From Oscillospiraceae bacterium (GTDB lineage: Bacteria > Bacillota > Clostridia > Saccharofermentanales > Saccharofermentanaceae): DNA of 50,634 nucleotides. The notes beneath the pieces were generated by a model. The model did no database searches. It was not told where the DNA came from and saw nothing but the letters and a program-made list of their open reading frames with translations. Positions 16,035 through 46,878 of the stretch are shown piece by piece (positions within the stretch are counted from its first letter, which is position 1; each line of letters starts with the position of its first letter). Made by a program: the position numbers and the translations under genes. The stretch is taken from positions 1 through 50,634 of the forward strand of contig SVJC01000002.1 in the NCBI GenBank assembly GCA_015069215.1, in the 5' to 3' direction.

Positions 16035-16061
16035 AGGGACTGCCTTGTGCAGTCCTTTTTT
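16035..16061 (+). terminator. Rho-independent terminator
   Basis: GGACTGC-CTTGT-GCAGTCC followed by TTTTTT. Confidence 0.8.
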
Positions 16062-16140
16062 ATGCTCTTTTCCCGCACTGCAACAAAACCCGCTGCTGCA
16101 CTGTATATATGGCATAAGCGAAAAACGGAGGAAAAGAATA

Positions 16141-17436
16141 ATGAAAAAGTTTATCGGAAAAAGAGCTGTTGTCGCAGGACTTACTGCAACCATGCTCCTC
16201 ACCGGATGCGCAAAAACCGCACCCGCACCTGCTGAAAAGCCCCTCAAGAATGACCCGCAGGTGAAAGCCGAGATCAATCTTGAGGCAGTCGGAAACCACA
16301 AGTTCGACGAAGAAAAGTTAAATGACGGCTACGGCGAATTCACTTTCAAGATGCTCGCAATGGCGGCCGCCAAGGCACAAGAGGCAAACATCATGATCTC
16401 GCCCGCCTCGATAATGATGGCGCTCGACATGTGTGCCGCAGGTGCAAAAGGGGAGACCTTAAAGCAGATCAACGATCTTTTCGCGAAGAACACGGATCCT
16501 TTAGATCAGCAGGCTTTTGCAGCCGAAATGATGAAGAGGATAAACAACGCCAAGAAGGTTGATTTCGCCTGCGCAAATGCCATCTGGAACAACGAGAACA
16601 TGCTTGGCGACAAGGTCAACGCAACTTATATCAACTACATCAAGAAGACATTTGAAGCTGAATTCCATTCGGGCAAATTCGACGGAAGGACTCATGAGCA
16701 GATCAACAAGTGGGTAGATGACAAGACACATCACATGATCCCGGACATCATCAACGAGCCGTTAGATCCCACGACCGTCATGGTCCTGGTCAACGCGATC
16801 CGTTTTGAAGGAGAGTGGAAGAAAGGTTATTCCGACGGAGATGTTTCCGATCAGGATTTCAAGGGCACCAACGGGACAAAGAAGGCAAAGATGCTTTCCG
16901 GCACCGAAAAGGGTTATTTCTCCACATCCAAGGCAACAGGCTTCATCAAGTACTATGAAGGCGACGAATATGCCTTCATCGCCATCCTTCCAAACGACCA
17001 GAAGGTCAGTGCTAACGATTTCCTCAAGGACTTCTCACACGACGATTACAAGGAGTTCATCAAGAGCCGCAAGTTAGTCGATGTAAACACTCTCATGCCC
17101 GAATTCAAGTCTGACTACATGGTCCGGTGCAATGATCTGCTCAAGGCACTTGGCGTAAAGGACGCATTCGATCCTGATCTCGCAAACTTCAAAGGGATCG
17201 CTGACACAAAACCTGAGAACATATATATTTCGAACGTCCTTCACAAGACCCACATTGAGGTCGACCGCAAGGGCACCAAGGCAGCCGCGGCCACGGCGAT
17301 CCAGACGGAAGCAAATTGCGCAATGCCTTCTGACATGCCGAAATCCGTCATCTGCGACAGACCTTATGTTTATGCGATCGTTGATACGCTGAACATGAAC
17401 CCGATCTTCATCGGCACGGTCAACAACGTCGACTGA
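16141..17436 (+). CDS. Serpin family protein, predicted lipoprotein
   Basis: Lipobox LLTGCAKT; serpin hinge HKTHIEVDRKGTKAAAATAI and distal RPYVYAIVDTLNMNPIFIGTVNN. Confidence 0.9.
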   Translation: MKKFIGKRAVVAGLTATMLLTGCAKTAPAPAEKPLKNDPQVKAEINLEAVGNHKFDEEKLNDGYGEFTFKMLAMAAAKAQEANIMISPASIMMALDMCAAGAKGETLKQINDLFAKNTDPLDQQAFAAEMMKRINNAKKVDFACANAIWNNENMLGDKVNATYINYIKKTFEAEFHSGKFDGRTHEQINKWVDDKTHHMIPDIINEPLDPTTVMVLVNAIRFEGEWKKGYSDGDVSDQDFKGTNGTKKAKMLSGTEKGYFSTSKATGFIKYYEGDEYAFIAILPNDQKVSANDFLKDFSHDDYKEFIKSRKLVDVNTLMPEFKSDYMVRCNDLLKALGVKDAFDPDLANFKGIADTKPENIYISNVLHKTHIEVDRKGTKAAAATAIQTEANCAMPSDMPKSVICDRPYVYAIVDTLNMNPIFIGTVNNVD

Positions 17437-17537: not shown

Positions 17538-17938
17538 TCATTCCAAAAAAGATTTGGCTGCGTTTTGGAATGACAAAATCGGTCCGTTTACGCCTTTTTC
17601 CGGGTGATATTCATTCCAAATCTGATTTATCAGCATTTTGGAATGAAAAAATCGGTCTGTTTACGCCTTTTTCTGAGTGATATTCATTCCAAATCTGAAT
17701 TATCCGCGTTTTGGAATGACAAAAATGGTCTGTTTACGCCTTTTTCTGAGTGATATTCATTCCAAATCTGAATTATCCGCGTTTTGGAATGAAAATTCTG
17801 AGCCTGAGCAAGAGAATTTGCCGAAAAAGTCATTCCAAAACAGAGATTTAAGAAGATTGGAATGACAAATTCCGTTTTTGAGGGTTTTCGGGACTCAAAA
17901 GAGCATACGAAAAGGCGAGCTCCGGCATTTTTCGTATG
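17538..17938. repeat. Array of 36-bp interrupted palindromes at 73-bp period (five units plus a sixth divergent palindrome)
   Basis: TCATTCCAAA-N16-TTTGGAATGA at 17538, 17611, 17684, 17757 and a variant at 17830, all exactly 73 bp apart; CATACGAAAA-N15-TTTTCGTATG at 17904-17938. Confidence 0.92.
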
Positions 17939-34426: not shown

Positions 34427-36142
34427 TCATTCGGCGAGGTTTTCTTTGATCTCCGTTTTCTTGGCGTACATGCGGTCATCGGCAAGGCGCTCTGCCATTG
34501 CGAGGCTCATTCCCGTTCCGTTCTCATAAACAGCCATGCCGCAGGGTATGAAAAGCGGGATCTCCGGCTTTTCATTTGTGTTGTATTCATCGATATAAGC
34601 ATCAAAAAGCTCCAAGGCTTTCTCGTATTCTTTTTCGACATCGGGGCCTGTCATGATGGCCATGAACTCATCGCCGCCGGTCCTGAAGCACCACGTTCCC
34701 GCAAACGTTCCGAAGGTTGACTTGATCGCTTCGGCAGCCGCAATGATGCGTCTGTCGCCTTCGAGGTGGCCGTGCCGGTCGTTGACCTTCTTGAGGTCGT
34801 TTACGTCAAACTGGACAAGGATGCATTTTCCGGATTCGCCGTTCTGAAGAACATCTTCGCACTCATTGAATGCGAGGCGGTTTGAAAGCCCCGTCAGGCC
34901 GTCTACTCTTGCGAGCCTTGCCTGGATGTCTGACTCAAGACTGCGCTTGTTGGTCTCGATCATGGAGGTGGTCTCGTAGATCAGAAGGACGATGAAGAAT
35001 ACCGTCAGACCGATCCTCGTTGCTGCAGCGTTATCTTCCTGCCAGCCGGGCAGATAGTAGCGGATCATATCGATCGTGCCTGTCGCGAAAAGAACTCCGA
35101 AAGCAAACAGCATGTAGCGGTATCTGTTGTCCCTTTCCTTGTCGAGCTTCATTTCGCGCACGAACATGAATACCATGAAGCCTATTACGATCGCGATTAT
35201 CGTGTGCGACAGGACGAGGATATTGTGGAAGTCCGTAACGTTCGTGATGAGGCACAAAAGGCTCAATATGAAATTGCCCGTAACGAGCCAGACCGTGATC
35301 TTAACGAGATGCGAATTGAGGTTCTCCGTCATGGCGGAGAAGAAGATCATCGCAGGCGCAGGAAGCAGCACGAGACACATGTGCTCAATCAGTCTTATGA
35401 CACCCGGATTGCCCGTGACCAGGAACATTATGTGCGTACCCGTATGCGTATAAAGCGCGAGGATTATGGTCATGGTCCCGAGCGCGATCGTCTCAACCAT
35501 TTTCGTAGTCCTTCTATTCTGGAACGCACCGAAAACAACGAGTGAAATGCCGAGGAACAAAGCAGAGAAGCTTAAGATGAACTTCCAGAAATTCCTGTGC
35601 AGGATACCCTTGATGAAAGAAGCGCCGCCTTCTGCGTGCATGCCGCGGAATGAAGTCCACTTGCCCTTTAGAAGTGAATCGTATTCGATCGTCAGCGTGC
35701 GGCTTCCCTCGAATTCGGGAACGTTTACGACGTGAATGTATTCGCCGTAGTAATCACCGTAGATGGGGAGAAGCTTCGGCTTGAAATCGTATATGAGTGC
35801 ATTGTCCAGATAGATCTTGAAATTGAGATTGCAGGTGGAGAAGCAGAGGTCTGCGCCGTTGAACGTTGACCATTCGATATTCTTGTACATGGAGATCGTG
35901 TTTACCGGATCGAAAACGGGATTCTCGGGATCAGCATCCTCATCCTGTCTTACGTTCGGGCTTGCGCCGCCGTTATACTTCCATTCATCGTTAACGGGAC
36001 GGTTCGGCGAATATACATTTCCGTCGGGAATGCTGAACACGAATAAAAGCCCCAGAAGGACTGCGGCTATTGCAACTATTGCCAGATTGATATATGCAAA
36101 AGTCTTATTCATTGGACGGACCGCCGGGTCAGTTGTGTGCAA
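34427..36142 (-). CDS. Membrane diguanylate cyclase with intact GGDEF motif
   Basis: RVDGLTGLSNRLAFNE, CFRTGGDEFMAIM; multi-TM N-terminal half. Confidence 0.9.
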   Translation of the reverse strand: MHTTDPAVRPMNKTFAYINLAIVAIAAVLLGLLFVFSIPDGNVYSPNRPVNDEWKYNGGASPNVRQDEDADPENPVFDPVNTISMYKNIEWSTFNGADLCFSTCNLNFKIYLDNALIYDFKPKLLPIYGDYYGEYIHVVNVPEFEGSRTLTIEYDSLLKGKWTSFRGMHAEGGASFIKGILHRNFWKFILSFSALFLGISLVVFGAFQNRRTTKMVETIALGTMTIILALYTHTGTHIMFLVTGNPGVIRLIEHMCLVLLPAPAMIFFSAMTENLNSHLVKITVWLVTGNFILSLLCLITNVTDFHNILVLSHTIIAIVIGFMVFMFVREMKLDKERDNRYRYMLFAFGVLFATGTIDMIRYYLPGWQEDNAAATRIGLTVFFIVLLIYETTSMIETNKRSLESDIQARLARVDGLTGLSNRLAFNECEDVLQNGESGKCILVQFDVNDLKKVNDRHGHLEGDRRIIAAAEAIKSTFGTFAGTWCFRTGGDEFMAIMTGPDVEKEYEKALELFDAYIDEYNTNEKPEIPLFIPCGMAVYENGTGMSLAMAERLADDRMYAKKTEIKENLAE

Positions 36143-36239
36143 TCGATATCCCTATTAAGTATATCACCTTGTTTTACATTATAAAATGCAGTTGTTTTGA
36201 TAAGAACCGCCGGAGTTTTTTGGTTGGTTTAGATGGTGA

Positions 36240-36421
36240 TGATTCCGGATTTCGAAAAAGCTGATTTTGGAATGAAAAAAACCTCGAAAAATAGGCGGTG
36301 GAGAAAGATTTTTCATTCCACAAAAACGAAAAACGATTTCTGGAATGATTTTTCGCGCTGAGATATCAAATTTGCTTGAAAAACATCATTCCAAAAATGC
36401 GGTTTTATAAATCTGGAATGA
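36240..36421. repeat. Three 36-bp interrupted palindromes at 73-bp period (same family as 17538..17938)
   Basis: Units 36240-36275 (degenerate left arm), 36313-36348, 36386-36421; arms TCATTCCA/TGGAATGA. Confidence 0.9.
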
Positions 36422-36433
36422 AGCCGGCCATAA

Positions 36434-36459
36434 AGAAAAAGGGCTGCAAAAGCAGCCCC
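36434..36459 (-). terminator. Rho-independent terminator of the XRE regulator gene
   Basis: Minus strand GGGCTGC-TTTT-GCAGCCC then TTTTTCTTT. Confidence 0.85.
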
Positions 36460-36480: not shown

Positions 36481-36924
36481 TCAGTTCCAGTGCTTAAGCT
36501 GTGAAAGAAGCCTGTCATACTGAAGGCGTCTGTCGGAGTCTTCAAGCTTTTCGGGATTGGGCATGTGCTCCATCAGAAAGTCGAGAAGATCGTCTTTGGA
36601 CTTGTACACGAAATCGCCGTCGGTGTAGCACCATTTGCAGTAGTCTTCGTTGAAGAATCCGTCGGGTTCGCGGCTGATGTTGATGTCTTCGTTAAGAGGC
36701 ATTCCGCAGCACTGGCAGTAGAGCTGCCTGGGGCTCCCGAGGATGGTGTTGATCGAGATGTCGAATTCTCTTGAGATGATCTTCAATGTCTCTGTGTTGG
36801 GCTGTGTCTCGCCTGTTTCCCAGCGGCTTACAGCCTGTCTTGTGACCAGGACTCTTTCTGCAAACTGATCCTGTGTAAGGTTATTTGCTTCTCTTATCTT
36901 TTTCAAAATATCTTTGGTATCCAT
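36481..36924 (-). CDS. XRE-family HTH regulator with C-terminal zinc-ribbon domain
   Basis: IREANNLTQDQFAERVLVTRQAVSRWETGETQPN; YCQCCGMPLNED...NEDYCKWCYTDGDF. Confidence 0.9.
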   Translation of the reverse strand: MDTKDILKKIREANNLTQDQFAERVLVTRQAVSRWETGETQPNTETLKIISREFDISINTILGSPRQLYCQCCGMPLNEDINISREPDGFFNEDYCKWCYTDGDFVYKSKDDLLDFLMEHMPNPEKLEDSDRRLQYDRLLSQLKHWN

Positions 36925-45798: not shown

Positions 45799-45830
45799 CC
45801 GTTAGATGCGGTTTTCGAAAAGATTATTAA

Positions 45831-45942
45831 TTCACGATTTGGAACACGGAATTGATCGATTCCGTGTTCATTTTTGTGAATATCGGCTCTGATTCACGAT
45901 TTGGAACACGATTATTGGCGTTTTCGTGTTCCGTTTCGTGAA
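45831..45942. repeat. Two 50-bp palindromic units at 62-bp period
   Basis: TTCACGATTTGGAACACG-N14-CGTGTTC..GTGAA at 45831-45880 and 45893-45942. Confidence 0.9.
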
Positions 45943-45943
45943 T

Positions 45944-46730: not shown

Positions 46731-46737
46731 GTAAACA

Positions 46738-46868
46738 CTTCCTCTCTTCCGGACTTTACCGTCGGCCGCAGAGTCTCACTGCGTCAATCCTGCATGCGAA
46801 AATTTGACAGGACTTGCGGACTTCCCTACCCAAGGGTCACCGCCGGTCGGAGAATCACACTCCGCCTT
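46738..46868 (-). ncRNA. FMN riboswitch (RFN element)
   Basis: Minus strand GGCGGAGTGTGATTCTCCGACCGGCGGTGACCC ... GACGCAGTGAGACTCTGCGGCCGACGGTAAAGTCCGGAAGAGAGGAAG. Confidence 0.93.
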
Positions 46869-46878
46869 GGACGCCTCA

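Follow-up and report, generated by a model that had tools for sequence, protein, structure and literature searches.

The window analysed here, a 50,634-nucleotide stretch of the genome of an uncultured, gut-type Oscillospiraceae bacterium (assembly GCA_015069215.1, contig SVJC01000002.1), contains a short palindromic array, W2, located between the terminator-like hairpin of an XRE/zinc-ribbon regulator gene and a weak promoter-like site of a GGDEF gene (Table 1). The original prediction rightly placed the array beside the XRE terminator but described the interval as divergent from the GGDEF gene, which is wrong: both genes lie on the minus strand and the array occupies a co-directional, tandem gap. 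Its three 36-bp units, here assigned to palindrome family F1, are present as described, with starts exactly 73 bp apart. The proposed arms TCATTCCA/TGGAATGA are exact in two of the three units, while the left arm of unit 1 carries two mismatches. A second F1 array in the window, W1, has five units at the same spacing and a serpin (protease inhibitor) gene upstream. W1 is capped in register by another palindrome, F6 (CATACGAAAA-N15-TTTTCGTATG), the distance between its dyad and that of the last F1 unit being 73.5 bp. The palindrome at this position, CATACGAAA..TTTCGTATG, is 35 bp long and occurs in three exact copies in the genome (in the window, at C62:27494-27528 [L224] and at C100:27789-27823 [L225]), two of which cap arrays of other families in 73-bp register; palindromes resembling it are present in other species, and the loci listed for it also include L111 and L138. 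The window also holds a two-unit F4 palindrome and an FMN riboswitch. Elsewhere in the same genome, family F2 consists of CGTAAAC pairs 12 bp apart with a 62-bp period (L086, L087, L096 and L099:2740-2856), and its copies in L087 and L096 have near-identical flanks that resemble an insertion sequence (GGGGCTGTCTC..GAGACAACTCC).

Table 1 Features of the window discussed in the text
Feature	Position	Strand	Remarks
Serpin (protease inhibitor) gene	16045-17436		upstream of array W1
F1 array W1	17538-17865	.	five units at 17538, 17611, 17684, 17757, 17830 (73 bp apart)
F6 palindrome	17904-17938	.	caps W1
7TM-GGDEF diguanylate cyclase gene	34427-36112	-	5' end toward array W2
Promoter-like site	36158-36185	-	between W2 and GGDEF gene; weak consensus match
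W2, F1 unit 1	36240-36275	.	left arm degenerate TGATTCCG, right arm TGGAATGA
W2, spacer 1	36276-36312	.	37 bp; A/T runs in common 10.4-bp phase
W2, F1 unit 2	36313-36348	.	both arms perfect
W2, spacer 2	36349-36385	.	37 bp; A/T runs in common 10.4-bp phase
W2, F1 unit 3	36386-36421	.	both arms perfect
Intrinsic terminator-like hairpin of XRE gene	36440-36459	-	adjoins W2
XRE (HTH_3) + zinc-ribbon regulator gene	36481-36924	-	3' end toward array W2
F4 palindrome TTCACGA..GAACACG	45830-45943	.	two units at 62-bp spacing; half-sites 11-12 bp apart; convergent gap
FMN riboswitch (RF00050)	46733-46878	-	

Each F1 unit is 36 bp long and is built from a pair of 10-bp half-sites in inverted orientation (TCATTCCARA/TYTGGAATGA), whose centres are 26 bp apart. 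A search of the 2.45-Mb assembly for TCATTCCA followed by TGGAATGA with a free gap of 8 to 38 bp returned 38 matches; the gap was exactly 20 bp in all 38, and every copy lay within an array. The reversed pattern, searched through the whole genome with the same free gap, gave 0 matches. Within the window the free-gap pattern matched seven times and was absent from 100 dinucleotide shuffles. When degenerate units are included, F1 comprises 44 units in 11 arrays, spaced at 73 bp in 31 cases and at 72 bp in two; the array number is approximate because arrays often lie at contig ends in this assembly of 192 contigs, and it takes C39/C156 once and the two ends of C61 once. Contig C61 (L020, L021) carries the same array flank at both ends in inverted orientation.

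Comparison between arrays separates the arms from the remaining sequence. Identity at arm positions is mostly 0.83-1.0, whereas loops and spacers are close to the values expected from composition (0.34 vs 0.27 and 0.33 vs 0.26, respectively). All 20-bp gaps have kept their length though their sequence is near-random, which argues for selection on gap length. W1 and W2 had been described as largely unrelated outside the arms, and local alignment agrees (score 17, shuffled mean 16.7, z=0.1); the possibility that the two are simple diverged duplicates of one repeat was rejected on this result. Units within one array are related to each other (loop identity 0.60, spacer identity 0.62), and tandem duplication thus does build arrays. 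Neutral duplication of a single 73-bp unit, followed by divergence and scattering, is nevertheless a highly improbable account of the whole, as what the arrays retain in common is limited to arms, lengths and A/T phase and as the spacing persists in related species whose arms differ.

The original prediction missed one feature of these arrays, the phasing of A/T runs in spacers and loops at 10.4 bp. Runs of at least four A or T peak near positions 9, 18, 27, 39, 50, 60 and 70 of the 73-bp register, and the seventh harmonic (10.43 bp) accounts for 56% of the variance of this profile. The best period was 10.4-10.5 bp in nine of nine independent F1 arrays vs 12% of AT-rich background windows, and all nine resemble phased A-tract DNA in having A/T runs at about 10.5 bp. 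Shuffle P values for single arrays are inflated by the tandem duplication of units, and the agreement in phase across arrays serves as the independent evidence; it was measured relative to the arms on interior spacer bases only (R=0.92, n=9, Rayleigh p ~0.0005). Under an AA-wedge model, the ratio of contour to end-to-end distance was 1.10-1.30 for F1 arrays compared with about 1.06 for shuffled sequence, and it exceeded every shuffle in eight of the nine arrays. W2 is the least curved F1 array, its value of 1.10 falling within the shuffles (maximum 1.15). According to this model, the DNA of F1 arrays should be intrinsically curved.

Palindromes of this kind could also act as RNA, the arrays being transcribed stem-loops that terminate transcription, stabilise mRNA 3' ends or are processed into small RNAs. 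Most of 16 single-unit RNA folds were indeed better than shuffles (z +0.2 to -4.9), as those of any palindrome would be; a location at gene 3' ends would suit such a role, as would compensatory arm changes, which are found in only two end units (TCATTCTA/TAGAATGA and TCATACTA/TAGTATGA). Against this, palindromy stops sharply at the 10-bp arms, and pairing at loop positions 11-14 and in the outer flanks is no more than expected, with only pair 15/22 above expectation. Pair 9/28 is A:T in 20 units, G:T in 11, A:C in 10 and G:C in none, and a single array can contain both A:C and G:T; neither this pair nor most inner pairs show the covariation of a stem maintained beyond sequence conservation. 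In families with four half-sites 12 bp apart (CGTAAAC in this genome and TGTTGAC in the same-genus genome G007), complementarity is 89% in the half-sites and only 43% in the 5 bp that separate them. The pairing data are a better fit to separate DNA half-sites than to an RNA stem, nothing in an RNA role would call for an exact 73-bp spacing or for A/T phasing at 10.4 bp, and no Rfam match was found at the W2 locus. An RNA role of the F1 arrays is thus possible but unlikely, and hairpin function is an improbable explanation of them.

A 36-bp unit alternating with a 37-bp variable spacer also has the proportions of a CRISPR array, and the stem-loop arrays of TIGR systems are tandem palindromes with variable inserts (PMC12045711). 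That the F1 arrays encode guides of either type is scarcely credible, however. Cas1 (PF01867) and the Nop domain of the Tas protein (PF01798) were not found in this genome, the repeat interior varies where a CRISPR repeat would be conserved over its full length, and about eleven arrays are dispersed. In 281 kb of the organism's own sequence, no 16-mer of the variable stretches was matched outside the arrays except at the C189 locus itself, their phage matches were at chance level only, and the spacers have a common structural phase. F1 arrays further differ from TIGR arrays in lacking a common stem pairing beyond the arms and in carrying a DNA-curvature signal instead.

Genomes of the same genus were surveyed de novo for tandem palindrome families (the genome studied here is designated G000). 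Other families were recovered with unit spacings of only 49-54, 61-64 and 70-74 bp, quantised at about one turn of the helix (R=0.87 for a 10-11-bp period, P<1/5000, an optimistic value because families may share ancestry and are then not fully independent). Two arrays show an internal shift of about one turn, with spacings of 74, 74 and 63 bp (G009) and 74, 74 and 64 bp (G026). AT content correlated with a cosine of 10.45-bp period around the dyad at |r|>=0.37 in 17 of 23 families (2% expected at random); two families, that of G043 and the 50-bp one of G005, lack the 10.4-bp A/T-run signal. Families do not agree in how A/T is phased about the dyad and appear to be of two phase types. A test for one common sign of this phase at the dyad failed (13/22, p=0.26), and half-site alternation at 2.5 and 4.5 turns, which fits F1 and not G009, was discarded as a general rule.

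Orthologous loci permit the same comparison at fixed positions. Downstream of the UDG gene and before a tRNA-like sequence, arrays in G000, G026, G029 and G009 are all spaced at 73-74 bp, while their arms differ by species (TCATTCCA, TACCTATAA, ACCTACGGGTTAA and CCTACAGAT, respectively); in G002 this position holds one palindrome only, and in more distant species no array. At the rSAM locus, G029 and G009 carry other families at 74 bp and G026 an irregular one. The XRE locus holds a 52-bp array in G007 and no array in G026, G002, G008 or G005. Identity at fourfold sites between the compared species is about 0.34-0.67, so neutral sequence had time for strong divergence. The prediction that the spacing is selected is supported by the tests proposed with it: genomic spacings, comparison outside the arms, and related species, in which a spacing of about 73-74 bp is retained with different arms and two arrays shift it by about one helical turn. 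In a scan of 85,488 species, convincing arrays occurred only in the same-genus RUG12081 (G009), and others looked like chance or unrelated repeats. Two viral matches were set aside as one common repeat, apparently coding, and no plasmid match was obtained for W1.

Both neighbouring genes could be resolved for 38 arrays, of which 24 lie in tandem, 11 in convergent and three in divergent gaps, against 155, 45 and 75 background gaps. Arrays are rarer in divergent gaps (3/38 vs 75/275, Fisher p=0.009) and are located at gene 3' ends; neighbouring genes were assigned from ORF length, and ORF calling wrongly placed at least one array in a divergent gap (G026 UDG), where it is the 3' end of UDG that faces the array. 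Such a location is also what would be expected of REPIN- or BIME-like selfish palindromes, non-autonomous elements dispersed by a transposase, amplified in tandem and settled at harmless gene 3' ends, with a geometry that reflects the copying mechanism or the transposase footprint. Families are species-specific, and arrays are present or absent between sister species, as illustrated by the empty rSAM interval of G002 and by the glycosyltransferase (GT2) locus of W1, where the orthologous interval of four sister species has no array. This pattern would be expected of mobile or dispensable elements no less than of functional ones and counts against the functional reading preferred below. In G007 (L053, L054, L055), a two-unit TGTTGAC element of about 120 bp occurs in near-identical copies at several sites across 200 kb, as would follow from recent movement. 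In F1 itself, a few array pairs share short segments and C62/C188 have one identical spacer, so some dispersal occurred. We nonetheless consider the selfish explanation rather unlikely. Conserved arms with near-random loops and spacers and a fixed 20-bp gap call for selection and not recent copying, no clean target-site duplication was recognised at the array loci, and phased A/T runs are not predicted and strict lengths left unexplained. The Y1/RAYT transposase domain (PF01797) had 0 matches in this genome, which is 92% complete, and was positive in five control genomes.

The F1 arrays share with REP and BIME elements the arrangement of extragenic palindromes in regularly spaced clusters. REPINs and GTAG/CGTC-tagged REPs are likewise short, species-specific, extragenic palindromes that are often clustered (PMC3733652), but the partners of most REP dimers are 20-100 bp apart, while F1 is always arrayed at 72-73 bp and its units, starting with TCATTCCA and ending with TGGAATGA, lack the GTAG/CGTC tag. 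Judged by this and by the transposase search, the F1 arrays are not RAYT-type REPs. E. coli BIME-2/REP elements are regularly spaced tandem clusters of palindromes, usually between genes, that bind gyrase and IHF and are thought to be topological barriers (PMC2817692, PMC6907758). By analogy, the F1 arrays may behave like BIME-2/REP arrays, from which they differ in that no RAYT was found, and in far fewer copies, strict 73-bp dyad spacing, phase-locked A/T runs and several unrelated palindrome families per genome. A literature search did not find a description of such arrays in this bacterial group.

The explanation that we favour, and regard as moderately probable, is that each array forms a lattice in which sequence-specific sites lie on phase-locked curved DNA, and that a putative protein binds these sites cooperatively and wraps the DNA. 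The low predicted curvature of W2, the two families that lack the A/T-run signal and the disagreement in A/T phase between families weigh against this. Dyad-symmetric F1 sites recur every 73 bp, or seven helical turns, with one A/T run per turn in fixed phase, and the retention of array geometry across species with changing arms suggests docking platforms for a DNA-wrapping protein. A dimeric or tetrameric sequence-specific DNA-binding protein would occupy successive dyads cooperatively on one face of the helix, and the curved DNA between dyads would be bent or wrapped on it. The resulting nucleoprotein arrays may be architectural or topological elements at the ends of transcription units that constrain supercoils or insulate neighbouring genes, by analogy with E. 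coli BIME-2 and gyrase. The genome has one AsnC/Lrp-family gene, and phased A-tract DNA with A/T once per turn is a likeness between F1 arrays and the DNA of LrpC/AsnC-type octamers and of RemA. RemA rings make AT-rich contacts once per helical turn, and DNA is proposed to be wrapped outside the ring or octamer (PMC8481266). RemA sites are poorly conserved in sequence, whereas F1 arrays add a sequence-specific palindrome at every seventh turn. A more specific version, which we put forward tentatively, is a nucleosome-like positioning lattice in which a wrapping-protein family evolves rapidly in specificity, so that species would rewrite the arms in concert while the geometry (five, six or seven turns per dyad) and the curvature code stay fixed.

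If this reading holds, many seemingly unrelated intergenic repeats in the genus would belong to one structural class that is defined by helical phase and not by sequence. It would offer a natural experiment on protein-DNA specificity that changes under constant geometry, and it would warn that repeat families can be functional without sequence conservation between species. It would also make testable whether bacterial palindrome arrays, REP/BIME included, serve DNA wrapping at gene ends.
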